Below, piece after piece: positions 39,605-52,613 of a stretch of 64,000 bases of DNA. The stretch is taken from positions 2,857,910 to 2,921,909 of the forward strand of contig NZ_CP031165.1 in assembly GCF_003344865.1 (NCBI RefSeq), written 5' to 3'. Position 1 is the first letter of the stretch. Each line of letters starts with the position of its first letter. This DNA is from Euzebya pacifica (GTDB lineage Bacteria; Actinomycetota; Nitriliruptoria; Euzebyales; Euzebyaceae). Both the position numbers and the translations under genes were made by a program. The notes below the pieces were generated by a model. The model did no database searches. It was given only the letters and a program-made list of their open reading frames with translations, and was not told where the DNA came from.

Positions 39605-40975
39605 GTGACGGCGTCGACGGAGGTGCTGGTCGTCGGTGGGGGACCAGCTGGGCTGGCTGCCGCCTTCCTGGCCGCCCGCGAAGGACACCGTGTCGTGCTC
39701 CTCGAGGCCGGGCACCGAGTGGGGGGCATGGCGGCCAGCGTCGACATCGCAGGGCAACGGGTCGACCTCGGCAGCCACCGCCTGCACCCTGCCGCGTCGC
39801 CCGGGTCGATGGGACTGCTCCGCGAGCTGCTGGGCGATGACCTCCAGGAGCGCCAGCGCCGCGGACGCCTCCGGCTGCAGCAGCGTTGGGTGAAGTTCCC
39901 CCTCCAGCCGCCGGACCTCGCCCGCAGCCTGCCACCGAGGACAGCGGCATCGATCGGCACCGACCTGCTGACCGGCGCGATGCGGCGCGAGCGACCCGCC
40001 AGGGACACCTACGCCGACGTCGTCAGGGCGAGGCTCGGCCCGACCGTCCTCCGGGACTTCCACGGGCCGTACGCCCGCAAGCTCTGGGGTGTCGAACCCG
40101 AGACGCTGGCCGGTGAGCTGGCCCGGCGACGCATCGCCCTGACCGGGCTCGGCGACGTGGTGGCCAAGCTGCGTCGGACGGCGACGCCGACCGGGCGACG
40201 GTTCCTGTATCCGCGGTTGGGCTACGGCCAGATCGTCGATCGCCTGGCCGAGGAAGCGGCCCGCAGCGGCGCCGACGTGCGGATCGGCAGCCGCCCCGTG
40301 GCCGTGGTGCCCGGCAAGGACGGCGTCGAGGCGACGCTGGCCGACGGGACCTGCATCCGTGCCGGCCGGGTGCTGTGGACTGCCCCGCCGACGGCGCTGG
40401 CGGCCGCCACCGGGCTGCCGGAGGTGCCACTGGCGCACCGCGGTGTCGCGCTGGTCTACCTGGTGGTCGAGGCGGACCGGTGGCTGGACTGGGACGCCCA
40501 CTACGTGCCGACGCCCGAGGTGGGTTTCGTCAGGCTCTCGGAGCCGAAGAACTACCGCGACGGCCCTGATCCCGACGGGGTCACGGTGCTGTGCGCCGAG
40601 GTGCCCTGCACGGCCGGCGACGAGACCTGGTCGGCCAGCGACGACGAGTTGGGCGCCATGGTGCTCGACGGCATGGCCCGGCTGGACCTGCCGCTGCCGC
40701 ACGTCGCCGCGGTCGAGGTCATCCGCCTGCCGAACGTCTACCCCCTGCTCACCGTCGACGGAATCCAGGAGGTCGCCGCCGCACAACGCCGGACCGAACG
40801 GCTCGACGGGATCACCGTCCTGGGCCGACAGGGCCTCGGCGTGGCCGACAACCTGCACCACGTCCTGGACATGTCGCGGGCCGCTGTCGCGTGCCTGCGC
40901 CCGGACGGCGGCTGGGACGCGCGTCGGTGGGCCCGTGCCCGGGCGGGGTTCGACGACCACGTCGTGGAGGACTGA
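39605..40975 (+). CDS. FAD-dependent amine-oxidase/protoporphyrinogen-oxidase-like protein
   Basis: 456 residues. N-terminal dinucleotide fold EVLVVGGGPAGLAAAFLAAR and VVLLEAGHRVGGMA, then LGSHRLHP, and a C-terminal FAD motif around GQGLGVADNLHHVLDMS. Architecture resembles the flavin amine oxidase / UDP-galactopyranose mutase / protoporphyrinogen oxidase superfamily; no residue set fixes the substrate. GTG 39605 with a G-rich RBS. A TAGGCT hexamer at 39530-39535 may be the -10 of its promoter. Confidence 0.75.
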   Translation: MTASTEVLVVGGGPAGLAAAFLAAREGHRVVLLEAGHRVGGMAASVDIAGQRVDLGSHRLHPAASPGSMGLLRELLGDDLQERQRRGRLRLQQRWVKFPLQPPDLARSLPPRTAASIGTDLLTGAMRRERPARDTYADVVRARLGPTVLRDFHGPYARKLWGVEPETLAGELARRRIALTGLGDVVAKLRRTATPTGRRFLYPRLGYGQIVDRLAEEAARSGADVRIGSRPVAVVPGKDGVEATLADGTCIRAGRVLWTAPPTALAAATGLPEVPLAHRGVALVYLVVEADRWLDWDAHYVPTPEVGFVRLSEPKNYRDGPDPDGVTVLCAEVPCTAGDETWSASDDELGAMVLDGMARLDLPLPHVAAVEVIRLPNVYPLLTVDGIQEVAAAQRRTERLDGITVLGRQGLGVADNLHHVLDMSRAAVACLRPDGGWDARRWARARAGFDDHVVED

Positions 40976-41099: not shown

Positions 41100-42677
41100 T
41101 CAGGTCCACTCGGCCTTGCCCACGCCGTACTTCTCCACGGGGGTGCCGTTGGCGTCGAGGTCCAGCGCACCGTTGCCGTTGCCGTCCACGACGACCAGCA
41201 CGGTGCAGTCCGGGGACTGCGAGGCAAGGCGAACGTCGATGTCGCCGTCCTCGTCGACCTCGGCCAGGAAGATGGCGCTGTCGTCCACGTCCACACCGTT
41301 GACCTGCGCGATGCGAGCCTGGCCGGTGTCGGTCGTGGCGAACCCGTCGGCATCGCCGTCGTTGTCGGCGTCGACGAACGTGTCGACGTCCGAGCCGGTC
41401 ACGTCGGCGTTCTCGCACGGGAAGAGCACGAGGTCCAGCGGACCGTCGATCGGCTCTCCGTCGTAGCGGCGGGCCATCGTGAAGTCGTGCACGCCCGGGG
41501 CCTCGGTGCTGAGGGCCTGCTGCGGCGTGACCGTGTAGGTCTGCGTCACGGCCGGGGTGTCGTCACCCCCGTCGCCGTTGTCGGCGCAGGACTCGGCGAG
41601 CCCTTCGGCACCGTTGGCGACATCGACGGACACGGCTTCGGGGCCACCAACGATCTGCAGGACCTCGAGGGTCGGGCAGCTTTCGGTGAACCACGAGCCG
41701 GCCTGTTCGCCGAGCAGGTCGCGGTTGGCGGTCAGCAGGATGGGCGCCTCGAGCTGGCCGGACAGCTGTCCAGCGGTCACGGCATCGGGGAAGGCATCGC
41801 CTGCGGCAAGGATGGCGGTGGTGTCCTCGAACCAGCCGGCGTCGAGGAACCAGTCGGCCACGATCGCGGCGGTGTCGGTACGGTTGATGCCACCCAAGCG
41901 GGTCGTCAGGCGGCCGTCGCGTTCGATCTCGTCGAGGACGTCATCGCTGATGGCGTCGGGGCCACCGATGGCGATCACGTGTTCGGGATCGAGGTCGACG
42001 AGCGCATCCCGGGTTGCCTCGGGAAGACTGGTCGGGTCGGTCAGCAGCAGCGGGATGGCGCCGTCGTTGGCGGGACCGCTGATGGAGAGGGCGTCGGGGA
42101 AGTCGGTGCCGCTTGCGAGCACGACGGTGGGCAGGTCCTCTGCCCCGAGCTCGGGCAGGCCACCGGCGATGGAGCGGGTGGTCTGGGCGATGTTCGCCGC
42201 GGACTCGTAGGGGTCGTCGTCGCCGACGCGGGTGACGGCGTAGTCCTCGGCGAGCTCGTCCTCGACGTCGCTGGTGATGGCCGCAGGGCCGCCCAGCAGG
42301 GTCACGCGCTCCGCGGCCATGGTCCGCAGGGCGTCAGCGGTGGTGTCGGCGAGGAAGTCCGGCGGGGTCAGCAGCATGGGTGCATCGAGCGCACCGGCAA
42401 GCGCGGCCCCCGCAAGGGTGTGGGTGAAGTCATCGGACGGACCGACGACGACTTCGTCGCTGCCCTCGGGATAGGCACGTTCGGCAGTGGCGACGGCGGT
42501 CTCGAGCCGGGTGGGTCCCTCGGCACGGGCCGGCTGCACGTCCTCGACGGCCGAGGCGATCGGGGCGACGACGAGGCTGGCCGCGGCCAACGCGAGGATC
42601 GCGAGGACGACCACCAACGACGCGCGGACTCCGCTGCGCATCGGACGGTGCGAAAGGTGTTCGGTCAGGGTGTTCAA
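41100..42677 (-). CDS. Secreted protein with cell-wall-binding repeats 2 (CWB2)
   Basis: 525 residues. Signal peptide (LVVVLAILALAAASLVVAPIASA), then three CWB2-type repeats of about 95 residues (landmarks VVVGPSDDFTHTLAG/VTLLGGPAAITSDVEDEL; VVLASGTDFPDALSIS/VIAIGGPDAISDDVLDEI; AILAAGDAFPDAVTAG/LQIVGGPEAVSVDVAN), and a C-terminal domain of Asp-rich strands. CWB2 repeats bind anionic wall polymers in other Gram-positives. TTG 42677 is chosen because GAGGAG lies 7 bases upstream; other candidates (42692, 42641) are poorer. Stands alone. Confidence 0.85.
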   Translation of the reverse strand: MNTLTEHLSHRPMRSGVRASLVVVLAILALAAASLVVAPIASAVEDVQPARAEGPTRLETAVATAERAYPEGSDEVVVGPSDDFTHTLAGAALAGALDAPMLLTPPDFLADTTADALRTMAAERVTLLGGPAAITSDVEDELAEDYAVTRVGDDDPYESAANIAQTTRSIAGGLPELGAEDLPTVVLASGTDFPDALSISGPANDGAIPLLLTDPTSLPEATRDALVDLDPEHVIAIGGPDAISDDVLDEIERDGRLTTRLGGINRTDTAAIVADWFLDAGWFEDTTAILAAGDAFPDAVTAGQLSGQLEAPILLTANRDLLGEQAGSWFTESCPTLEVLQIVGGPEAVSVDVANGAEGLAESCADNGDGGDDTPAVTQTYTVTPQQALSTEAPGVHDFTMARRYDGEPIDGPLDLVLFPCENADVTGSDVDTFVDADNDGDADGFATTDTGQARIAQVNGVDVDDSAIFLAEVDEDGDIDVRLASQSPDCTVLVVVDGNGNGALDLDANGTPVEKYGVGKAEWT

Positions 42678-42774
42678 CGTGTCACTCCTCACTGGATCGC
42701 GTGAAGTGGCTGTACTCGAACGCCTACCCGGGACCCCCGGGGGACCGAAACATCGCGCTGGCCGACCAGGCCGA

Positions 42775-44439
42775 TCAGGCCAGCGCGTCGGTGCGGCGCA
42801 GCACCAGCAGCCAGGTCAGCACGCCGGACAGCAGCACCAGCACCAGGGCGACGATGCTGGCCTCGGCCCAGAACGCGTCCTGTGTGGCTGCCCACACGTC
42901 GGTGGCCAGCGCGCGGAAACCTGGCGGGCTCAGCAGCAGTGTGGCGGGGAGCTCCTTCAGGGTCGACAGCAGCACCAGGCCACCGCCGGCCAGCACCGAC
43001 GGCAGCATCATCGGCAGCTCGACCCGGACGAGTCGCCTGAACCGACCGGCCCCGAGCGTGCGGGCGGCCTCGACGACGCTGTCGGGCAGCGCCTCGACCC
43101 CGACCTGGGACGCTCGCAGCGACTGTGCGCCGAAGTGCACGACGTAGGCGATCACCAGCAACGGCAGCGTCTGGTACAGCGCTGCGACGACGCTGGGGCC
43201 GCGGAGGACGAAGAACGAGAGGCTCAGCGCGATGATCAGGCCGGGCAGCGCGAACCCGGTGATGACCAGCCCGTTGGCGGTGTCGGCCGCACGACCGCGA
43301 CGTCGGACGGTCAGGAACGCGATCGGCAGGACCACCACGGCGGCCACCACCGCCGCGAGGATGCCGGCGGTGGCGCTGCCCAGCAGCGGCGACAGCAGCT
43401 GCGACGGATCGCTGAGGACCGAACTCGCCCGGGTGCTGCCGGCCGACAGGCCGCGGACGGCCCAGTAGACCAGCACGACGAGGGGGCCCACCAGCGCAGC
43501 CGTCGTCACGCCGGCCACGAACAGCAGGCCCAGCGGGCGTCGACGGCCCATCGCCCAGCGCAACCCGGTACGCCCCCGCACCGAGGACTGTCTGTCGAGC
43601 CCCCGCAGCCGGCTCGTGGCCGCCCGTTCCAGCGCCGCGGTCAGCAGGGCCAGCACGCCCAGCTGCAGGGCGAACGCGCTGGACACCGGTCGATCCAGCA
43701 GGTTGCCGAAGATCACGCGGGTGAGGGTGTCGTAGCGGAGCAGCTGGGGCAGGCCGAAGTCGGAGACGGCGTACAGGAACACCAGCAGCGCCCCGGCGAG
43801 GATGGCCGGCGTCACCTGCGGCAGGACGACCCGGCGGAAGATGGTCGCCGGTGACGTGCCGAGCAACCGGGCGGACTCCTCGAGGTTGGCGGGCAGCTGC
43901 CGCAGTCGGGCGACGACCAGCAGGAAGACGTAGGGGTAGGTCAGCAGCGTCAGGATGGCAAGCGCCGCCCAGAAACCCTCCACCGCGGGCAGGGACAGCC
44001 CGAGGACCTCGTCGGTCAGGCCGCCGGGTGCCAGGGCCGCCTGGATCGTGAACGCGCCGATGTAGGACGGCAGCACCAACGGCAGCGCCAGCATGATTCC
44101 CCATGCCCTGGCGCCCGGCAGGTCGGTGCGTGCGACCAGCCAGGCGCACGCCGTTCCCAGGACCGAGGTGGTCAGCGCCACGCTCGCCCCGAGCACGAGG
44201 CTGCGCCACAGCGGTGCGAGGTTCGACGGGTCCGTCAACGCCTCGACGACCGGGGCACCGAGGGTCCACGACTGCTGGACGAGGAACAGCAGCGGCAGGG
44301 CGAACACCGCCGCGAGCGCCAGGGATCCGACGCGCAGCCCACGGCCGCCGGTGTCGCCGGCCGCGGTCCGGGGCGCACCGTCGTCGGCCCCGTCCACAGG
44401 GGACGGGGCCGTCGTGATCGGATCAGCTGGCGAGGCCAC
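42775..44439 (-). CDS. Iron(III) ABC transporter permease, FbpB-like fused two-domain
   Basis: 554 residues, about 12 helices in two halves, each with the ABC-permease EAA loop (ESARLLGTSPATIFRRVVLPQ and EAARTLGAGRFRRLVRVELPM). A fused double permease is normal for the FbpB/ThiP class importing Fe(III). GTG 44439 overlaps the binding-protein gene by 17 bases. Together with the lipoprotein before it and the ATPase at 51506 it makes a complete importer. Confidence 0.9.
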   Translation of the reverse strand: MASPADPITTAPSPVDGADDGAPRTAAGDTGGRGLRVGSLALAAVFALPLLFLVQQSWTLGAPVVEALTDPSNLAPLWRSLVLGASVALTTSVLGTACAWLVARTDLPGARAWGIMLALPLVLPSYIGAFTIQAALAPGGLTDEVLGLSLPAVEGFWAALAILTLLTYPYVFLLVVARLRQLPANLEESARLLGTSPATIFRRVVLPQVTPAILAGALLVFLYAVSDFGLPQLLRYDTLTRVIFGNLLDRPVSSAFALQLGVLALLTAALERAATSRLRGLDRQSSVRGRTGLRWAMGRRRPLGLLFVAGVTTAALVGPLVVLVYWAVRGLSAGSTRASSVLSDPSQLLSPLLGSATAGILAAVVAAVVVLPIAFLTVRRRGRAADTANGLVITGFALPGLIIALSLSFFVLRGPSVVAALYQTLPLLVIAYVVHFGAQSLRASQVGVEALPDSVVEAARTLGAGRFRRLVRVELPMMLPSVLAGGGLVLLSTLKELPATLLLSPPGFRALATDVWAATQDAFWAEASIVALVLVLLSGVLTWLLVLRRTDALA

Positions 44440-45445
44440 TCTCCCGGATCAGCTCCAGCGTGTGTTCGAGTCCGCCACCGAGCTCGTCGATGTCGAAGGG
44501 GGGAACGTCCAGCGTAGCCAGCGGCGGGACGCCGTCGGCAGGCTCCACTCCGACGGCCAGCGGGTACTCGAAGGTCTCCTCGGCGAAGTAGGTCTGTGCC
44601 TCCGCCGCCAGGAGGAACTCGACCAGCTGCCGGGCCTCGTCGGCCTGGTCGGTGCCCTCGACGACGCTGATGGGCGAGGCGATCAGGAGGGCGCCGATGT
44701 CGTCGCCGGCCAGCAGGTGGTTGCGCGAGGGCAGACCGGGGTCCTCCTCGAGGAACCGGTAGTTGTAGTAGTGGTTGACCAGGCCCATCGCGACCTCGCC
44801 GCGGCCGACGGCCTCGACGATGGCGTTGTTGTTGGCGTAGGTGGGCGCGCCCGTCTCGACCAGCCCCTCGAGGAACTCCACGGTCCGCGCCTCGCCCTCG
44901 ACCTGCACCATCGCGGTCACGAAGTCCTGGAACGAGCCGTTGGAGGGGGCGACGGCGACCCGCCCGGCAAGCGGCGGCTCGAGGATCTCGAAGACCGACT
45001 CGGGCAGCTCGGCCGGATCGACGAGGTCCTCGTTGTGGACGAGGACACGCTGTCGACCGCTCACACCGACCCACAGGCCGTCGGCGTTGCGGAAGCGCTC
45101 GTCGACGAGGTCGAGGGTCTCCTGTGGCAGCGGCGCGAGCATGCCCTCACCGGACAGGAACCCGGTCGCGCCGGGGGACTGGCTGTAGAAGACGTCGGCG
45201 GGAGTCCGGTCACCCTCCTGCTGGATCAGCAGGGCAAGCTCCGCGGAGTCGCCGTAGCGGACCTCCACCGAGATGCCAGTCTCCTCGGCGAACTGCTCGA
45301 GGATCGGGTTGACCAGGCTGGAACCCCGCCCCGAGTAGATGGTGACGACGTCGTCGCCGCCAGTGGAGCAGGCGCCGAGCGTCAGCAGCATGGCTGCGGC
45401 GAGGACGACCCTCACGATGCGGGTGGAGGTGGTGGGGCGGCTCAC
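44423..45445 (-). CDS. Iron(III)-binding lipoprotein, FbpA/FutA-like
   Basis: 340 residues. Lipobox LLTLGAC, then a periplasmic-binding fold: VVTIYSGRGSSLVNPILEQF at the start, VEVRYGDSAEL, ADVFYSQSPGATG. The tyrosine cluster VNHYYNYRFLEED supplies the iron phenolate ligands of this class. GTG 45445 overlaps the stop of the FEA1-family gene (GTGA). Captures ferric iron for the FbpB-like permease. Confidence 0.9.
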   Translation of the reverse strand: MSRPTTSTRIVRVVLAAAMLLTLGACSTGGDDVVTIYSGRGSSLVNPILEQFAEETGISVEVRYGDSAELALLIQQEGDRTPADVFYSQSPGATGFLSGEGMLAPLPQETLDLVDERFRNADGLWVGVSGRQRVLVHNEDLVDPAELPESVFEILEPPLAGRVAVAPSNGSFQDFVTAMVQVEGEARTVEFLEGLVETGAPTYANNNAIVEAVGRGEVAMGLVNHYYNYRFLEEDPGLPSRNHLLAGDDIGALLIASPISVVEGTDQADEARQLVEFLLAAEAQTYFAEETFEYPLAVGVEPADGVPPLATLDVPPFDIDELGGGLEHTLELIRESGLAS

Positions 45446-46668
45446 GACAGGGTGCCGATCTCGGCGTCGTCGATGCCCAGCTCGGCCAGCGCGGGCGCCA
45501 GTGCCTCGCGGACCACGTCGCCGTCGCCGGTGCCCGGCTCGGCCGACAGGTCGTAGATGGCGTCGATGGCGGTCAGGTCGAGCGTGGACAGGTCGACGCC
45601 GGCGTCGGCCAGCAGCGGCCGCAGGACGCGGAAGAAGGCCAGGCCCTCGGCCTGGTGGGCCGCGGCGGCCTCGAGGTCGCCCTCGGCGACGTCCTGGGCG
45701 GCGACGGTGGCGTAGCGCACGCTCGCCTGCGTGTAGGTGACGATCAGGTTGCGGAGGATCTCCTCACGGGCGGCGACGGCGGCGTCGACGTCACCCTCGA
45801 GCAGGGCATCGCGCCCGGCTTCCATGGCCGCGAGGATCGCGACGTTGGACTGCGCGGTCCCGTCGTCGGTGGCGGTGCCGAAGTTGTCGGCCCGGCTGTC
45901 GGCGGTGGCGTAGGGGGCGCAGCCCGGCTCGGCCCCGTGGTAGAAGGCCCAGGCCTCGTCCCAGTTGTGCGGGGCACCCTCATCGGCGTCCAGCTCGCCT
46001 GCCTCGGCCTTGTCGATGGCGGCGTTCAGCTCGTGCACGGTCCAGGCGACCATGATCTGGTTCTGGACACCCTTGGCGATGCCCTGAGCGCGGGCACCGT
46101 CGCCGGCGTCGGCGAAGATCCCCTCACCATCGAGGGCGGCCGTCACGAAGTCGTCGAGCGGGGTCGCGGCGTCGAAGGTGGCGGCGACGGCGTTGTTGCG
46201 GTCCTCCGCCGTGGCGAAGCCGGCCAGGGAGCGGACCGAGCCATCGCTGTTCACGGAGTGCACACCGTCGGTGTAGATCTCGCGGATGGCGTCGTAGTCG
46301 ATCGGGTCGGCGCTGCGGAGCTCGTTGATCACGCAGACGTCGCGGACCACGAGCCGGTGGGCGGAGACGTCGGAGGCGTAGGTGTAGCCACCGTCGCCGT
46401 CGACTTGCTCGACCTCGGGCGCCGTCCCATCTGCAGCGGTGCCGCTGGCCGACCCGCTGCCGGATGCCGGCGCGCTGGCGGAGCCGCTGCCGGATGCGCT
46501 GCCCGACGAGGACGCGCTGCTGCCGTCCTCGGTGCCGATCTCGCGGACGGTGGCGCCGTCGTCGGTGGCGCAGGCACCCAGGAGCAGGGCGCCGGAGAGG
46601 GACATCGCGATGGCGACCGTCCGCAGGCGCGGCGAGGCGAGGCGGTCAGGCATGGAGTGGGAACGCAC
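45442..46668 (-). CDS. FEA1-family iron-assimilation lipoprotein
   Basis: 408 residues. Lipobox LSGALLLGAC, a short motif DDGATVREIGTEDGSS, a Ser/Gly/Ala-rich linker, then a helical domain with the FEA1 signature PHNWDEAWAFYHG and YTQASVRYATVAAQDV. FEA1/H43 proteins were described in green algae as low-iron-induced extracellular iron-assimilation proteins. GTG 46668 has AGGAAG 8 bases upstream. Coupled to the iron-binding lipoprotein by GTGA overlap, so iron function is well supported by context. The conserved acids/His may bind Fe(II). Confidence 0.82.
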   Translation of the reverse strand: MRSHSMPDRLASPRLRTVAIAMSLSGALLLGACATDDGATVREIGTEDGSSASSSGSASGSGSASAPASGSGSASGTAADGTAPEVEQVDGDGGYTYASDVSAHRLVVRDVCVINELRSADPIDYDAIREIYTDGVHSVNSDGSVRSLAGFATAEDRNNAVAATFDAATPLDDFVTAALDGEGIFADAGDGARAQGIAKGVQNQIMVAWTVHELNAAIDKAEAGELDADEGAPHNWDEAWAFYHGAEPGCAPYATADSRADNFGTATDDGTAQSNVAILAAMEAGRDALLEGDVDAAVAAREEILRNLIVTYTQASVRYATVAAQDVAEGDLEAAAAHQAEGLAFFRVLRPLLADAGVDLSTLDLTAIDAIYDLSAEPGTGDGDVVREALAPALAELGIDDAEIGTLS

Positions 46669-46732
46669 GGTGGGGTCTTCCTGTCGATCGTTGGGGCTGT
46701 GGACTGGGCGTCGGGCGGTGGGCAACGGTCAC

Positions 46733-49700
46733 CTACGCGGCGAGTCGAGGGGAGTTCAGCTGCCGCCACACGGTCGGGACGACCCGACGCAGGTAGCGAC
46801 CGAGGCGAACGAAGCTGCGCCCGGACTCGCGGAAGCGGTAGGTGATGGGCACCTCGGCGTAGCGGTAGCCACGGCCGAGCAGGTCGATGGTGAGGACCTG
46901 GGCGTAGTTGTAGTCGTGCGGGATTTGGGCGTCGGCGGCGGCGCCGGGGGAGAAGGCCCGGTAGCCGGTCTGGCCATCGCTGACGGGTTGGCGGACGGTC
47001 CAGCGGACCCACGCCGTCAGGACGAGGTTGCCTGCACGACGATGGGGCCGCATCCACTCGATGTCTCCGGCGAACCGGCTGCCGCCCACGTAGTCGGCGT
47101 CACCGTCCAGGATCGGGGCGACCAGGTTGCCGAGCTCCGCGGGGTCGTACTCGCCATCGGCATCGCAGAAGGCGACCGCAGCTGCGTGCTGCTCGACCGC
47201 CCAGCCGAGCCCGGTCCGCACCGCCGCGCCGAGGCCCAGGTTGGTGGGGTGGGGGACGACCACGGCGCCGGCGGCGACCGCCTCGGCCACCGTGTCGTCG
47301 GTCGACCCGTCGTCGATGACGGCGACGACCACCGGGTGGCCATGCACGGTGGAGGGGGCGCGACGGACGACGTCGGCCACCCGCGGGCCCTCGTTGTGCG
47401 CGGGCATGAACAGCACGACCGGGGCATCCGGTTCGGTGGCCCTCGCCGGGACGGGACGCTCGACGGCTCGCCGCGGCAGCCGGAGGTTGCCGAGCAGGCC
47501 GGGTGAGGGGACCCAGAGGGCCACGGCCCCGACCGCGATGCTGTAGGCGGTCTTCACGGCGTGCAGGCCGATCGCGATGGCGAGGCCCGTGGCGACGGGA
47601 ACCCCGGCGGCAGCCAGCCCGGCGGTGGCAGCGGCCTCGTAGGAGCCGATACCGCCCGGCGCGACCGCGACGAGCTGGCCTGCGATGGCGGCGGCCAGCA
47701 CCACGACGGACTCCGCGGCGGTCAGCTGGACCCCGAAGACGCCCGCGACCTGGTGGACGAGGACGGCCTCCAGCAGCCAGGCAGCGGCGGTCAGGCCGAT
47801 GACCGACAGGCCCGGCAGCCCCCCTGCGGGGAGAGGACCGGCGGCTGCCGACGTGGGGGAGGTGCGGCGGGCGATGACCAGCCAAGCGGCCACACCGAGG
47901 GCCGCGACGATGCCGGCGACGACCCCACCGATGGGCCCCAGCATGCGGGTGACGACGGCCGGGCCGGCCAGCATCCCGAGGACCAGGAGGACCAGGACGT
48001 CGCCGCTGCGCAGCAGCACGGTCGACGCCGTCGCCGCCCCGGCCTCGACGCCCGCGCGGCGGACGACGGACACCACACGCAGGGGTTCGCCCATCCGCAG
48101 CGGGAGGACGTGGTTGCCGCCCAGCGCCAGGTGGATGCCCGCCAGGGCCTGGCCGAACGACAGGCGGGGGAGGACTCGCTGCCAGGCGACCGCTCGCAGG
48201 ACGAACGCCAGGCCGAAGGACGCCAGGCCCAGCAGCAGCCGTCCGGGCGATGCCGACAGCGTGTCCCACGCGGTTCGAAGGGCAGCGGTGTCGACGGTCC
48301 GGACGCCCCACACGGTGACGCCGACCGCCAGCACCGACCCGACGGCGATCGCACCCGCGCGGACGAGTCGCCGCACGTCGACGGCCTCGTCCGACGCCGT
48401 CACGACGTCGGCACGACCGGCGCGGCGCCACGCGGCCACGGCCGACCCGACCAGCAGCACGGCCCAGACGAGCAGGAGGACGTCGTCGGCGACCCCCGCG
48501 CGCCGGCCGTCCGGCAGGAGCCCGATCAGCGCCCGCCGGATCGGCGATCCCGACTCGGCGAAGTCCACGATCAGGACCGGTCCGCCGGTCGTGGCCTCCA
48601 CGGCCAGCCAGACCCATCCGACGATGCCGCTCAGCAGGGCAGCGAGCCCGGCGGTGAACGCCGTTCGGGACCGCAGCAGCGTGTCCGCGGCCCGGGCGAG
48701 GACGATCACCAGCAGCGGCAGGACGACCACGACCTGCCGGCCGGGGGACCACCAACCGTGCATGGTCAGGGCGACGAAGGTGGCCGTCAGCCAGCCGCCG
48801 GCGGCAGGGGCGAGCAGCGCCCAGCGGTCGGTCACCCGCTGGCGCAGCACCACGGCGACGGCTGCCGGCAGGGCGAACCACGCCGGTGTCCACGCGGCGA
48901 TGCCGAAGTCGGCGTCGACCAGCAGCCCGACCAGGCGCTTGGCACGTCCGAACGGGTTGGGGGCGTTGCCGACCACCGACAGCTCCCCCCCGGACACGAA
49001 GTGATCGCCAGCGGCGTAGACGGTCCAGCCGCCGTACCAGAGCTGGTGGAGCCCGAGATAGGCGATCCCCGCCAGGCCGAGGAGGCCCGCACCCACCCAG
49101 ACGAGCTGTCGGTGCCCGTCACGCCACCATCGGACTCCCGCGAGCAGCACCACCACGGCCGCGACGGGCGCGTACTTCACCGCAAGCCACGGCAGGGCAA
49201 CGATGGCGGCGACGAACCCGAGGACATGGCGCAGCCCGACACGCGGGGCGGTCAGCACGGCCACGGCGACCATGACGGCGAGGGCCGCGGGCACCTCCGG
49301 ATAGACCTGTGTGCCGTAGCTGGCCAGCGGCATCGCCGCGGACAGGCCACCGACGACCAACCCGGCAACCGCCGGTCGCACCTCGAAGCGCCGCACGGCG
49401 ACCCAGGTGGTCAGCCCGGCCAGCAGGGCGGCGAGGATCGCCAGGGTGGCCTTGGCCGCCGGCCACGCCGCGTCCGGTGGCAGGGCCATGGCGGGGGCCA
49501 GCAGCACACCCAGCAGTGGGTCGTGCGGGCTGACTCGTCGGCCGCTCGCGTCCAGCGGGGTGGTCTGCTCGTCGAGCGCGATCTCGTGGAAGGGCCGGAA
49601 GGCCTCCTCCTCGATCTCGTCGGCGATGTCGAGGCTGCCGTCCCGGGCCAGGCCCAGCGCGGTGAGCAGGTAGTAGGGCTCGTCGCCCGACGTCCGTGCG

Positions 49701-49825
49701 CCGTAGGTGGCCCGAGCGCCAACGCCCACGAGGGATCCGACCAGCGCCACGAGGGCGCTGGCCACGACCCAACGGGTCAGGAGGGCGCGGCCGGTGGCCT
49801 GCCCGGCACGGACGTCGGTCATCAT
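46733..49825 (-). CDS. Three-module membrane glycosyltransferase fusion
   Basis: 1030 residues. (1) Residues 1-~480: GT-C-like membrane module with the acidic loop TSGDEPYYLLTALGLARDGS near residue 46 and ~11 helices. (2) ~490-785: LPG_synthase_TM/UPF0104 module with eight helices (GGNHVLPLRMGEPLRVV, VAVAPGGIGSYEAA). (3) ~800-1030: cytoplasmic GT2 (DPM1-like) with PAHNEGPRVADVV, VIDDGSTDDT and CDADGEYDP. Normally these are separate genes of polyprenyl-phosphate sugar transfer; fusing synthesis, flipping-type and transfer modules in one chain is unusual. Sits inside the iron locus. Confidence 0.82.
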   Translation of the reverse strand: MMTDVRAGQATGRALLTRWVVASALVALVGSLVGVGARATYGARTSGDEPYYLLTALGLARDGSLDIADEIEEEAFRPFHEIALDEQTTPLDASGRRVSPHDPLLGVLLAPAMALPPDAAWPAAKATLAILAALLAGLTTWVAVRRFEVRPAVAGLVVGGLSAAMPLASYGTQVYPEVPAALAVMVAVAVLTAPRVGLRHVLGFVAAIVALPWLAVKYAPVAAVVVLLAGVRWWRDGHRQLVWVGAGLLGLAGIAYLGLHQLWYGGWTVYAAGDHFVSGGELSVVGNAPNPFGRAKRLVGLLVDADFGIAAWTPAWFALPAAVAVVLRQRVTDRWALLAPAAGGWLTATFVALTMHGWWSPGRQVVVVLPLLVIVLARAADTLLRSRTAFTAGLAALLSGIVGWVWLAVEATTGGPVLIVDFAESGSPIRRALIGLLPDGRRAGVADDVLLLVWAVLLVGSAVAAWRRAGRADVVTASDEAVDVRRLVRAGAIAVGSVLAVGVTVWGVRTVDTAALRTAWDTLSASPGRLLLGLASFGLAFVLRAVAWQRVLPRLSFGQALAGIHLALGGNHVLPLRMGEPLRVVSVVRRAGVEAGAATASTVLLRSGDVLVLLVLGMLAGPAVVTRMLGPIGGVVAGIVAALGVAAWLVIARRTSPTSAAAGPLPAGGLPGLSVIGLTAAAWLLEAVLVHQVAGVFGVQLTAAESVVVLAAAIAGQLVAVAPGGIGSYEAAATAGLAAAGVPVATGLAIAIGLHAVKTAYSIAVGAVALWVPSPGLLGNLRLPRRAVERPVPARATEPDAPVVLFMPAHNEGPRVADVVRRAPSTVHGHPVVVAVIDDGSTDDTVAEAVAAGAVVVPHPTNLGLGAAVRTGLGWAVEQHAAAVAFCDADGEYDPAELGNLVAPILDGDADYVGGSRFAGDIEWMRPHRRAGNLVLTAWVRWTVRQPVSDGQTGYRAFSPGAAADAQIPHDYNYAQVLTIDLLGRGYRYAEVPITYRFRESGRSFVRLGRYLRRVVPTVWRQLNSPRLAA

Positions 49826-49835
49826 GAGTCGTCGA

Positions 49836-50447
49836 TCAGGAGACGGTGAGCGTGCCCTGCATGCCCAGCTCGTAGTGGGTCTCGCCGTCAGCGGTCTCGA
49901 TGATGCAGAAGAGGGTGTACTCGCCCGGCTCGAGGTCGTAGGTGGCGTTGCAGGTCTGGCCGGAGCTGAAGGCCTCGAGCTCGAAGGCGCCGGCGTCCTC
50001 GAGCGCAGCCTCGTCAGGGGCGCCGTCGGTGAAGGGCACCTCGCCGCCGCCGGGCAGGAACGCCAGCTCGTGGTTCTCCGCGCCCTGGTTGTCCAACGCG
50101 AACGTCACGATGCCTGAGGGTGCCTCGACGGACTCGGGCTCGTAGCCGTAGTCGACGGCGACGATGTCGATGGTCTCGATCGCGTCGGCTTCCATGTCGG
50201 GGTTGACGGGGGCACAGGCCAGCTCGCCGGTGCCGGTCGCCGACGCCGAGGACGAGGCCGACGACGAGGAGGAGCCGGACGCCGACGATGACGAACTGCC
50301 GTCCTCCTCACCGAGCGTGGTGACCGACGCACCGTCGTCGCTGCCGCACGCCGTCAGGGCGAGGGCCGACACGAGGGCGAGGGCAAGCACACGCCGCGTC
50401 GTGCGGGCGGTGCGCCTGGGGCGGGGAGACGCGGTGGTCACGGGCAT
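49836..50447 (-). CDS. Cupredoxin lipoprotein of the iron locus
   Basis: 203 residues. Lipobox SALALTAC, then GASVTTLGEEDGSS and a long Ser/Ala linker, then a cupredoxin: His in NHELAFLPG, and Cys, His and Met in LFCIIETADGETHYELGM. The leader-plus-linker is strikingly like that of the FEA1 lipoprotein (GATVREIGTEDGSS). The separate cupredoxin next to a FEA1 protein recalls the EfeO arrangement, where a cupredoxin domain helps handle iron. ATG 50447. Confidence 0.8.
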   Translation of the reverse strand: MPVTTASPRPRRTARTTRRVLALALVSALALTACGSDDGASVTTLGEEDGSSSSSASGSSSSSASSSASATGTGELACAPVNPDMEADAIETIDIVAVDYGYEPESVEAPSGIVTFALDNQGAENHELAFLPGGGEVPFTDGAPDEAALEDAGAFELEAFSSGQTCNATYDLEPGEYTLFCIIETADGETHYELGMQGTLTVS

Positions 50448-50502
50448 GGTCGTTCCAGTCACTGCGGATCGGGGGTGATCGGGGTTGGTGTGGCGGATGC
50501 GG

Positions 50503-51480
50503 TCAGGTACGGCCCGGCGCCGACAACGAGGACTCGGCGAGCAGGTCAGCGCCATCCCGGGCGAGCTGGTCGCGCAGCCCGTCGAGGAGGCCGGTACGGG
50601 GCTGCCAGCCGAGCAGCCGCTCGGCCCGGTCGAGGTCGGCCCAGGTCCGCCGGGGGTCGCCGGGGACTGCGCCCACCGGCACGACGGGGACCGGCCGACC
50701 GCAGAGGCGGCCGACGGCGTCCAGGGTCTCGGAGAGCGTGACGGGAGTCCCGCTGCCGACGTTGACGACCGTGCCCGGTCGCAGCTCGACCTCGAGCGTC
50801 CGCATCGTGGCCTCCACGACGTCGTCGACGTGGGTCATGTCGCGGGCCTGGGTGCCGTCCCCGCGAAGGGGGAAGGGCGCACCGCCCCGCAGGGCCTCGA
50901 CCATCCGTGCGACGGCCATGTCGGGCCGCTGGCGTCGGCCGTACACGCTGAAGTAGCGCAGCGCGACGGCGGGAACGCCACGGAGGGCGTAGGTGCCGAC
51001 CAGCATCTCCAGGGTGGCCTTGGACACGCCGTAGGGGCTGATCGGTCGCAGCGTCACGTCCTCGCGGACCGGGCCGTCGCCGCCGGCCTCGCCGTAGACC
51101 GAGCTGGAGGACGCCATGACGATCGTCTGCAGCGGTGCGTCGAGCGCGGCCTCCAGCAGGTGCTGGGACAGCGCGACGTTCTCCTGCAGGTGGTCCTCGA
51201 ACCCCTCGGCCCAGCTCGTCTGCACGCCGGGGCGACCGGCCAGGTGGACGACCGCATCGACGCGACGCAGCAGCGACGGAAGGTCGAGGTCGGCGAGGTC
51301 CGCCACGACGACCTCGAGCATCCCGGGTCCGGCCCGCTCGGTGAGTTCGGCCACGGTGCGACCGCGGCGGGCATCGGGCACACGGTCGACGACGACGACA
51401 CGGTGGCCGTCGTCCAGCAGGCGGGTGCACAGGGACGCACCGATGAAGCCGGCGCCGCCCGTGACGAGTACGGATGACAT
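50503..51480 (-). CDS. NDP-sugar epimerase/dehydratase (extended SDR)
   Basis: 325 residues. NAD site VLVTGGAGFIGASLCTRLL, active-site ASSSSVYG Ser and SPYGVSKATLE Tyr-x3-Lys, substrate loop RDMTHVDDVV. Similar to UDP-glucose 4-epimerases and related enzymes; substrate not resolved. It begins 10 bases downstream of an iron box. Probably feeds sugar to the glycosyltransferase two genes later. Confidence 0.85.
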   Translation of the reverse strand: MSSVLVTGGAGFIGASLCTRLLDDGHRVVVVDRVPDARRGRTVAELTERAGPGMLEVVVADLADLDLPSLLRRVDAVVHLAGRPGVQTSWAEGFEDHLQENVALSQHLLEAALDAPLQTIVMASSSSVYGEAGGDGPVREDVTLRPISPYGVSKATLEMLVGTYALRGVPAVALRYFSVYGRRQRPDMAVARMVEALRGGAPFPLRGDGTQARDMTHVDDVVEATMRTLEVELRPGTVVNVGSGTPVTLSETLDAVGRLCGRPVPVVPVGAVPGDPRRTWADLDRAERLLGWQPRTGLLDGLRDQLARDGADLLAESSLSAPGRT

Positions 51481-51489
51481 CGCGAGAAG

Positions 51490-51510
51490 GTTAGGTGAAC
51501 CTGACCTAAC
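51490..51510 (-). promoter_or_regulatory. IdeR/DtxR-type iron box (epimerase-FEA1-Fbp unit)
   Basis: GTTAGGT-GAACCTG-ACCTAAC: a 21-base palindrome matching the iron-box consensus TTAGGTTAGGCTAACCTAA in both outer arms. It overlaps the fbpC-like stop codon and sits 10 bases before the epimerase start. Predicts repression when iron is plentiful. Confidence 0.82.
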
Positions 51511-52570
51511 TTGTCGAATCGGCGCGGTACGCCGCCGTGGGGGGACCGTCGTAGGTCAGCGCCACGGGGTCGCCAGCCCGGTAGGGCGGCAGCGACATCG
51601 TGCGAACCCGCAGGGTCCCGGCCGGCCCGGTCAGCTCGGTGATGGCGTCGTGGCCGTAGTACTCCACCGCGCGGACCGTCATGGGCCCTCCCGGCGTCAT
51701 GCGGAGGTGTTCGGGCCGGACGAGCACGTCCATCGCCCCGGTCGCGTCGGCAGCCAGCGGGACCGCGCCCAGCATCGTCTCGGCCGCCGTGCCCGACGCG
51801 TGGCCGGCGACGAGGTTGGCATCGCCGAGGAACTCGGCGACCTCCCGTGTCGCGGGGGCGGCGTAGATGTCGGCGGGGTGTGCCTGCTGGTGGATGCGAC
51901 CGGCGATCATGACGGCCACCTCGTGGCCCAGGAGGAACGCTTCCTCCTGGTCATGGGTGACGACGACCGCGGTGATCTCCAGCTCGGTCAGCAGGCGGGC
52001 GACGTCGGCGCGGATCTGGCCGCGCAGGCCGGCGTCGAGGGAGGAGAAGGGTTCGTCCAGCAGCAGCACCCGTGGCTGGGCAACCAGGGCGCGCGCCAGC
52101 GCAACCCGTTGCTGCTGCCCGCCGGACAGGGTGCTCGGCATGCGCGGCCCGAAGCCGGCCAGGCCGACCATCTCCAGCGCCTCGTCGACCGCCGGCCCCC
52201 GGCGTGCGGCCCGGTCCAGCCCGAAGCCGACGTTGGCCGCCACGGTCATGTGGGGGAACAGGGCGCCGTCCTGGAAGACCATCCCGACGTTGCGGCGTTC
52301 GGCCGGCACGTCGGTGATGTCGTCCTCGCCGACGTGGATCCGGCCGGTGGACAGGTGCTGCAGGCCGGCAACCGCGCGAAGCAGCGTGGTCTTGCCGCAG
52401 CCGCTGGGACCCAGCAGCGCGAGGGTTCGTCCGGTCGGTACCTGCAGGTCGACCCCGTGCAGGATCTCCACGCCGCCCAGGTGGACCCGCGCGTCGGTGA
52501 CATGCAGGGATGCCGCCCCGGGCACGAGGTGCCGGGCAGGCGAGGACGGCTGGATGTCGACGGCGGTCAC
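51506..52570 (-). CDS. Iron(III) ABC transporter ATP-binding protein, FbpC-like
   Basis: 354 residues. Walker A LLGPSGCGKTTLLRAVAG, Q-loop GMVFQDGALFPHMTV, signature TLSGGQQQRVALARAL, Walker B VLLLDEPFSSLDA, H-loop VVVTHDQEEAFLL, and a C-terminal TOBE-like domain (VLVRPEHLRMTP). Powers the FbpB-like permease, whose gene lies 7 kb downstream on the same strand. GTG 52570 has no RBS; TACCAT about 8 bases upstream suggests a leaderless or very short leader, with an iron box above. Confidence 0.9.
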   Translation of the reverse strand: MTAVDIQPSSPARHLVPGAASLHVTDARVHLGGVEILHGVDLQVPTGRTLALLGPSGCGKTTLLRAVAGLQHLSTGRIHVGEDDITDVPAERRNVGMVFQDGALFPHMTVAANVGFGLDRAARRGPAVDEALEMVGLAGFGPRMPSTLSGGQQQRVALARALVAQPRVLLLDEPFSSLDAGLRGQIRADVARLLTELEITAVVVTHDQEEAFLLGHEVAVMIAGRIHQQAHPADIYAAPATREVAEFLGDANLVAGHASGTAAETMLGAVPLAADATGAMDVLVRPEHLRMTPGGPMTVRAVEYYGHDAITELTGPAGTLRVRTMSLPPYRAGDPVALTYDGPPTAAYRADSTS

Positions 52571-52594
52571 GGAGGCCGATGGTAACGACTTCGG

Positions 52595-52613
52595 TGAGGT
52601 AAGGCACACCTAA
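52595..52613 (-). promoter_or_regulatory. IdeR/DtxR-type iron box (fbpC-like gene)
   Basis: TGAGGTAAGGCACACCTAA: aligns to TTAGGTTAGGCTAACCTAA with about four mismatches, retaining AGGT and ACCTAA arms. It ends 25 bases before the GTG at 52570, covering the -35 region of its promoter. Confidence 0.68.

Follow-up and report, generated by a model that had tools for sequence, protein, structure and literature searches.

The window analysed here is a stretch of 64,000 nucleotides from Euzebya pacifica (positions 2,857,910 to 2,921,909 of contig NZ_CP031165.1). Its subject is a cluster of seven open reading frames (ORFs), all on the minus strand and with a third-position G+C content of 89-93%, in which a predicted ferric iron importer stands together with two lipoproteins and with enzymes that may glycosylate them. 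In cluster order the genes encode the ATPase FbpC, a sugar epimerase, a cupredoxin lipoprotein, a glycosyltransferase fusion of 1030 amino acids (aa), an FEA1-related lipoprotein, the binding protein FbpA and the permease FbpB (Table 1). Seven same-strand genes with two iron boxes had been claimed in the original prediction, and the reading frames, their strand and the DtxR/IdeR-type boxes bear this out; its combination of FEA1 and cupredoxin lipoproteins with a ferric ATP-binding cassette (ABC) importer, an epimerase and a large glycosyltransferase is upheld by Pfam, NCBIfam and phmmer matches. Numbers preceded by G and L denote compared genomes and loci.

Gene content of the cluster

The best solved relative of FbpA is the ferric iron-binding protein 7w3w, with which its Tyr-Tyr pair is aligned. 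With a ferric-type FbpA bearing paired Tyr, an FbpB permease and an FbpC ATPase, the set is predicted from its sequences to be an FbpABC ferric importer. An identity as phosphonate importer was rejected, the NCBIfam Phn models remaining under their cut-offs and the best solved FbpA relatives being ferric-binding structures. The FEA1 protein scores 590.5 bits against the model NF038033, 'FEA1-related lipoprotein' (cut-off 250), and is thus assigned to that family. No solved relative was found by profile up to E 1, no fold relative by Foldseek at 0.001, and no FEA1 on plasmids at 1e-5; in a fold comparison the best Z was 6.7, and imelysin 3n8u (Z 5.0, rank 24) was read as noise level. In the cupredoxin the type-1 copper ligands H62, C117, H127 and M132 are invariant in 13 of 13 aligned proteins. 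The epimerase reaches 152 bits against the GalE model, under the cut-off of 262.3 (NCBIfam).

Three domains make up the fusion, namely a GT-C transferase, an LPG_synthase_TM domain of flippase-like kind and a GT2 resembling polyprenyl-phosphate-sugar synthases. Residues 1-480 have no Pfam or NCBIfam match and no solved relative by sequence up to E 1. A model of this part (pLDDT 67, pTM 0.74) gave AftA, AglB, ALG12, ArnT and others as best Foldseek rows, with E from 1.1e-3 and probability 1.00. In VIA, 46 rows at Z 13.3-21.9 stand apart from the next row at 6.8, protein O-mannosyltransferase (PMT) Pmt4 being at Z 21.0; by their titles we take the 46 to be GT-C enzymes or subunit U of glycosylphosphatidylinositol (GPI) transamidase, which is GT-C-like. 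An acidic pair, D48-E49, follows the first helix and is invariant in 5 of 5 sequences; acidic residues at this place presumably represent the GT-C motif. The modelled fold thus places residues 1-480 in the GT-C superfamily. For the GT2 domain the nearest NCBIfam models, both under cut-off, are PpgS and AglJ, which are polyprenyl- or dolichyl-phosphate-sugar synthases. The three domains form one polypeptide in the window, G022 and G008, and elsewhere GT-C and the part with the other two domains (LPGtm-GT2) are two genes. At two other loci (L009:4461-7646 and L242:3838-5991) the GT2 domain is fused to a phosphodiesterase/sulfatase-type domain.

Beyond the seven genes, an FAD enzyme distantly like UDP-galactopyranose mutase (UGM) belongs to the set by its conserved neighbourhood: homologues are present in module loci of other genera, and the window copy has no iron box of its own. 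If this enzyme and the epimerase are taken together, the sugar might be of the galactose type, though this is a guess. The CWB2 protein behind fbpB may be an operon member, its membership being uncertain; similar proteins occur in G022 (87%) and in the stretches of G023 and G024 (35% and 32%).

Table 1. Coordinates of the cluster, its domains and boxes, and the adjoining genes within the window
Feature	Position	Strand	Basis or remark
DtxR/IdeR-type iron box TTAGGTGTGCCTTACCTCA ahead of fbpC	52595..52613	-	4 mismatches to 19-mer
fbpC, ferric ABC ATPase with TOBE domain	51506..52570	-	Pfam ABC_tran 6.8e-37, TOBE_2 2.7e-06; open from 52609, likely GTG start 52570 by eye
Iron box TTAGGTCAGGTTCACCTAA	51491..51509	-	overlaps fbpC stop, 10 bp before epimerase start
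NAD-dependent sugar epimerase/dehydratase	50503..51480	-	Pfam Epimerase 3.2e-50
Cupredoxin lipoprotein	49836..50447	-	Pfam Cupredoxin_1 3.6e-07; likely start 50447 by eye
Cupredoxin tag C-GS-DDGASVTTL and Ser-rich stalk	50226..50348	-	
GT-C membrane transferase domain, fusion residues 1-480	48386..49825	-	fold match
LPG_synthase_TM (flippase-like) domain of fusion	47528..48349	-	Pfam PF03706 9.8e-25
GT2 domain of fusion, polyprenyl-phosphate-sugar-synthase-like	46733..47410	-	Pfam PF00535 7.9e-20
FEA1-related lipoprotein	45442..46668	-	NF038033 1.4e-177; PF07692 (Fea1) 5.8e-27; likely GTG start 46668 by eye
FEA1 tag C-AT-DDGATVREI and Ser/Ala/Gly stalk	46423..46572	-	
FbpA, ferric iron-binding lipoprotein	44423..45445	-	Pfam/NCBIfam solute-binding protein; phmmer 7w3w 6.8e-70
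FbpB, double-domain permease	42775..44439	-	Pfam BPD_transp_1, two stretches
CWB2 cell-wall-binding protein	41100..42692	-	Pfam CW_binding_2 5.1e-40; 82 bp behind fbpB
FAD enzyme, distantly UDP-galactopyranose mutase-like	39605..40975	+	phmmer UGM 1.7e-08, residues 4-268

Iron boxes and conserved gene neighbourhood

The box before the epimerase has 3 mismatches to the 19-mer, where 0 are expected from shuffles, and is the best box in the genome; the box ahead of fbpC differs from the degenerate form by 2 mismatches when read on the plus strand and by 3 on the minus. A search of the 6.37-Mb genome with the degenerate 19-mer TTAGGTNAGGCTNACCTAA at up to 3 mismatches returned seven rows at five places (one row in a backward-read control), the window boxes being the two best places genome-wide, with 1 and 2 mismatches. 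Each of the three others has 3 mismatches; they stand no more than 40 bp ahead of two Peripla_BP_2 genes and some 0.3 kb ahead of a ferritin-type gene. The DtxR/IdeR dimerisation domain has one match in the genome. Boxes above chance, the company of iron genes and the DtxR gene point to membership in a predicted DtxR/IdeR regulon, and the layout predicts two units, fbpC under the first box and epimerase-cupredoxin-fusion-fea1-fbpA-fbpB under the second. A box at G000:C1:2746065 (L087) precedes a small ORF, Bfd-like by eye and without Pfam match, and a ferritin-type gene.

Boxes were also counted in 28 stretches (the window, seven FEA1 loci and 20 loci of the class Nitriliruptoria), at up to 4 mismatches and within -100 to 250 of the start; the counts depend on our picking of ORFs, whose start positions are uncertain, and the Fisher tests take genomes as independent, with relatedness uncorrected. 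Boxes precede 9/24 LPGtm-GT2 genes, 3/8 epimerases, 5/19 fbpA and 1/12 flavoenzymes, 1/17 separate or fused GT-C ORFs and 10/268 other ORFs; for the glycan genes together the count is 14/61 against the same 10/268 (p = 6e-6). For nine stretches outside the class the limit was relaxed to 5 mismatches, at which the real palindrome gave 14 and shuffled ones 0.5 per motif, and a box was found before 5/8 GT2 genes and 2/67 other ORFs (p 6e-5). In L236 and L244 DtxR-family genes adjoin the cluster, and in L068 the distance is about 6 kb.

The neighbourhood recurs in other genomes, many of which are incomplete and fragmented. A GT-C or LPGtm-GT2 part was found in 21 of 66 class genomes (at least 318 bits, the next genome reaching 107), and in 17 of the 21 fbpA lies within 6 kb of the glycosylation genes. 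The 14 best-scoring FbpA of the class are all in such clusters, the next 30 are in genomes without glycosylation genes, and 3 of the last 11 are clustered again. In all four class genomes without a nearby fbpA a module gene is still preceded by a box (3-5 mismatches), which stands before the epimerase in G023, between two glycosyltransferase genes in G028, before GT2 in G059 and before the cupredoxin in G006. Outside the class, nine genomes of a 396-genome draw from the phylum have a strong GT-C match (at least 267 bits); their stretches hold FbpA or FbpB in eight (in four a distant kind, 28-36% identical), a GT2 part in eight and a cupredoxin in seven, one of them weak. Seventeen phylum genomes whose GT-C matches were weaker (194 bits or less) were excluded from the module counts; seven of them were examined (L245-L251), and BLAST found no FbpA or FbpB there. 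Acidimicrobiia and Dehalococcoidia records likewise show the link between glycan genes and ferric importer. Since the loci differ in gene order and strand, we take this as an association formed repeatedly and not as a single inherited block. The in silico support for linkage and boxes is good.

FEA1 is not the core of the set and counts as an optional part. It occurs in 4/66 class genomes and 3/396 genomes of the phylum draw (G000 and G002 counted in both), has no match in three genus mates, and is lacking in the nearest relative, G022, where the fusion is followed by fbpA after 30 bp. A peptide-pattern scan that favours near relatives gave eight FEA1 loci (L005-L012): four are Acidimicrobiia-type, two Dehalococcoidia and one archaeal, and L008 is identical to a G306 contig, so that L008 and L017 are the same contig. 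The module glycosyltransferase is in the stretch at eight of twelve distinct FEA1 loci (the window, L005, L006, L007, L009, L010, L011 and L015). At L014 (G010) and L017 (G306, partial) a GT-C gene is elsewhere in the genome, and no glycosylation genes were seen for L016 (G002, whose genome lacks them) and L012 (the locus alone being viewed). The FEA1 loci linked to glycan genes come from Actinomycetota and Chloroflexota records. Iron control of the glycan genes, as predicted from their boxes, and their tie to FEA1 are supported in silico, so that the refuting condition named in the original prediction does not overturn it. A cupredoxin domain (hidden Markov model score above 100 bits) was found in 1 of 12 FEA1 stretches, the window, cupredoxins being sought in the fetched stretches and not in whole genomes; among these stretches the set of FEA1, cupredoxin, Fbp and glycosyltransferase is therefore peculiar to this genome. 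Of the predicted conserved neighbourhood, the pairing of glycan genes with the importer holds and the full set does not. Among the FEA1 loci, L010:7668-9908 encodes a 747-aa lipoprotein with two tandem FEA1 domains, and L012:7854-9122 a Poseidoniales archaeal FEA1 lipoprotein, with no tag (see below) or glycosyltransferases in its stretch and two weak FbpC-like ATPase ORFs downstream.

A lipoprotein tag with a Ser/Thr stalk

When the profiles of FEA1 and of an M75 (imelysin) lipoprotein (L067) were compared, their N-termini alone aligned. This M75 lipoprotein is encoded in the cluster of the genus mate G024 and has its own iron box. The aligned part is a tag, C-xx(x)-DDGAxV(R/T)x(L/I), directly after the lipidated Cys, and it is followed by a stalk of Ser/Thr and Gly/Ala. 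Tag and stalk occur in three families, FEA1, cupredoxin and the EfeO-type M75 proteins (G024, G077 and G091); the cupredoxin fold is certainly unlike FEA1 and M75, and the tag is common to all three. The model NF038033 matches cupredoxin and M75 lipoproteins below its cut-off because it spans the tag region. Tag and stalk are both lacking in the window FbpA.

Searched for with a DNA pattern, the tag matched 73 times in 36 of 66 class genomes, and 8 times in a backward-read control. Of the 73, 71 were fetched and filtered with our lipobox expression, and the two in the window were judged separately; the tag follows a lipobox Cys in 17 cases (15 of the 71 and both in the window). Lipoproteins with the exact tag are present in 14/21 class genomes with glycosylation genes and in 0/45 without (p = 1.5e-9, relatedness uncorrected). 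Variants in G014, G026 and G028, read by eye and without control, would raise the first count to 17/21; outside the class, variants were seen in the same way at L235-L237, L240 and L241. A stricter pattern gave 12 matches in 11 of 396 phylum genomes, one of which (G123) was dropped for an in-frame stop; the other 11 are preceded by a signal-like stretch and followed by a Ser/Thr repeat. The stricter tag occurs in 10/25 phylum genomes with the genes, three of the ten (G066, G077 and G091) being outside the class, and in 0/371 without. The 25 genomes with the genes include G021, which has the GT2 part only, and G306, whose GT-C is partial; LPGtm-GT2 was searched within the class.

Ser or Thr occupies one alternate phase in 21 of 27 tagged stalks (at least 0.55, with at most 0.25 in the other phase, limits chosen after viewing the data), the exceptions being L005, L006, L011, L064, L191 and L192. 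The residues in between vary (Gly, Ala, Gln or His), and Ser has mostly given way to Thr in L065, L068 and L017, the last of which has an untagged stalk. A variant, EDRPG, pairs with a divergent GT-C branch in three loci (L009, L010 and L242), two of them of one class; it is the variant found at both loci with the phosphodiesterase/sulfatase-type fusion.

The cupredoxins of L235 and L239 match weakly the N-terminal part of the EfeO model. The M75 lipoproteins match its M75 part alone, with 295.9 bits for L272 and 268.5 bits for L067 (cut-off 270). In G091 a tagged cupredoxin (L263), beside a GT-C gene, and a tagged M75 protein (L272) are separate genes on different contigs. EfeO joins a cupredoxin and an M75 domain (excerpt of PMC9174327). 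The cupredoxin resembling the N-terminal part of EfeO and the M75 protein the C-terminal part, these lipoproteins would represent EfeO-like capture domains made as separate stalked proteins, with FEA1 as an alternative or addition.

Several tagged reading frames are broken. Those at L072:3994, L077:7702, L191 and L192 stop soon after the Ser/Gly repeat begins, and in L072, L077 and L191 the cupredoxin sequence resumes in another frame; the breaks reflect either assembly errors or slippage (phase variation). The tag relic of G009 (L192) and the FEA1 gene of G010 (L014) each adjoin a permease gene of similar N-terminal sequence, suggesting that FEA1 may have been lost in G009. Lipopeptides consisting of signal, tag and Thr/Ser repeat alone adjoin the GT-C gene at L068:13100 (-) and L071:13452 (-).

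Proposed glycosylation and comparison with known systems

The reading preferred here, with a probability of roughly 0.6, is that iron-capture lipoproteins on stalks feed FbpABC and are O-glycosylated by a dedicated system that iron represses. In iron shortage the DtxR/IdeR-type repressor would leave both boxes, and the capture lipoproteins would be held off the membrane on their Ser/Thr-Gly/Ala stalks. The cupredoxin, with its type-1 copper, probably oxidises Fe(II) or passes electrons. FtrB, a cupredoxin of another iron system with different copper ligands, oxidises Fe(II) in vitro (excerpt of PMC11966278). FEA1 probably binds Fe(III), as was reported for the algal Ot-Fea1 (excerpt of PMC7676907), and would hand it over to FbpA for import by FbpABC. 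The epimerase and the UGM-like flavoenzyme would shape the sugar, the GT2 domain would load it on polyprenyl phosphate, and the LPG-TM domain would flip the product. Outside the membrane the GT-C domain would transfer the sugar to Ser/Thr of the stalk, the tag beside the lipidated Cys serving as a putative docking site near its active site. A surface glycan made in iron shortage, which might aid iron binding or anchor the lipoproteins, had been supposed in the original prediction, and nothing pointing to a surface polysaccharide was found; synthase-like GT2, flippase-like and GT-C domains together with tagged Ser/Thr stalks argue for lipoprotein modification instead. The proposed chemistry has a precedent, since Streptomyces lipoproteins, one of them for iron transport, are O-mannosylated through Ppm1/Pmt, a synthase/GT-C pair (excerpt of PMC6593405).

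A further step is taken more tentatively: the glycosylation may be directed by the tag as well as controlled by iron, the lipidated N-terminal motif marking unlike iron-capture proteins and tag and GT-C evolving together in the DDGAxV and EDRPG branches. Cupredoxin, FEA1, EfeO-type M75 and the tag-only lipopeptides show the tag to be portable between proteins.

Several observations weigh against this reading of the cluster. The glycan on the stalks is itself deduced from sequence, and the window GT-C domain resembles the PMT enzymes in fold alone, with no match to their Pfam or NCBIfam sequence families. Four of the 21 enzyme-bearing class genomes (G027, G029, G059 and G060) have no tag, even a variant one, in the stretches read. 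The class pattern gave 8 matches in 17 outside-class genomes, one of them a lipoprotein tag (G066), and the other outside-class tags surfaced through the stricter-Cys pattern or through reading of the loci. The stalk alone is not specific, since a Ser-rich linker is also present on L088, an iron-type lipoprotein of the same genome that has no tag; the FEA1 of L017 has a stalk and no tag, and that of L016, from a genome without the enzymes, retains a short Ser-Gly/Asp stretch. Since the tag is in most cases physically linked to the enzymes, and since the genomes are relatives of one another, the p-values overstate independence. Of the five GT2 boxes outside the class, three reach 5 mismatches, and at that limit one shuffled palindrome of six, near the real one, also matched one GT2, one fbpA and two FEA1 ORFs. 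With a cupredoxin at one FEA1 locus of twelve, a handover between cupredoxin and FEA1 cannot be general.

An iron-stress envelope glycan, for which the enzymes would put sugar on a cell-wall polymer or a lipid while tag and stalks were flexible spacers, is judged unlikely. The GT-C fold matches include AftA, AftB, ArnT and PimE, which we take from their labels to be enzymes acting on glycans or lipids, and the Ser-rich linker of the untagged lipoprotein would suit a spacer; such a glycan leaves unexplained why one tag recurs in three families, why its exact pattern is confined to enzyme-bearing genomes among those searched, and why Ser/Thr alternate while the fillers change. A role of the tag in sorting or in complex assembly, through docking of the lipoproteins to the permease or to each other, with the glycosyltransferases co-regulated for another reason, is distinctly improbable. 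The position of the tag next to the membrane anchor would fit, as would its absence from the window FbpA, which must dock to FbpB; what does not fit is that glycan genes and a box persist without a nearby fbpA in four class genomes, of which G023 and G006 keep a tagged cupredoxin. A chance neighbourhood of an unrelated glycan operon and an iron operon, to which the same 4/21 genomes might point, is scarcely credible given the linkage in 17/21, its recurrence in Acidimicrobiia, Dehalococcoidia and 8/9 outside-class stretches with changing gene order, and the boxes preceding GT2 genes.

If the glycosylation of stalked lipoproteins is real, bacterial iron sensing is tied to protein glycosylation, a short motif predicts the substrates, and it is suggested how thick-walled cells hold metal-capture proteins off the membrane. 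Bacterial FEA1 gains a concrete setting, a ferric ABC importer, for functional tests. The statement of the original prediction that no system of this composition had been described agrees with the open-access literature, among the matches listed. Searches for 'FEA1-related lipoprotein', 'NF038033' and 'bacterial FEA1' found nothing there (few subscription journals being covered), nor did FEA1, lipoprotein, iron and actinobacteria taken together; the excerpts of the listed open-access matches describe no such composition, no iron boxes before the glycosyltransferase and no tag common to several lipoproteins that has a transferase linked to it. Each of the parts, NF038033 included, belongs to a known family.

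The importer shares with known FbpABC-type importers a ferric-type FbpA with Tyr-Tyr, a double-domain FbpB and an FbpC with TOBE; it differs in being embedded among stalked capture lipoproteins and glycosylation genes, the best FbpA branch being found in such clusters alone (14/14). The cupredoxin and M75 parts of EfeO in EfeUOB have relatives in the compared loci as separate tagged lipoproteins. The window encodes no protein above the EfeO cut-off, puts FEA1 beside the cupredoxin and has an ABC importer; neither an FTR1-type permease (EfeU) nor a DyP peroxidase (EfeB) is among the eight window proteins scanned. Algal FEA1/phytotransferrin belongs to the same domain family, and the bacterial protein differs as a lipoprotein on a tagged stalk, served by an ABC importer instead of endocytosis. 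Streptococcal serine-rich-repeat adhesins likewise have a Ser-rich stalk and dedicated neighbouring glycosyltransferases; here the proposed targets are lipoproteins, the chemistry would proceed through polyprenyl phosphate, and control by iron is predicted. Nearest in chemistry is actinobacterial Ppm1/Pmt, with a GT2 like polyprenyl-phosphate-sugar synthases, a GT-C of Pmt-like fold and lipoproteins as targets, from which the present system is set apart by a GT-C outside the PMT sequence families, the fusion of three domains, predicted iron control and proposed targets that bear a tag.

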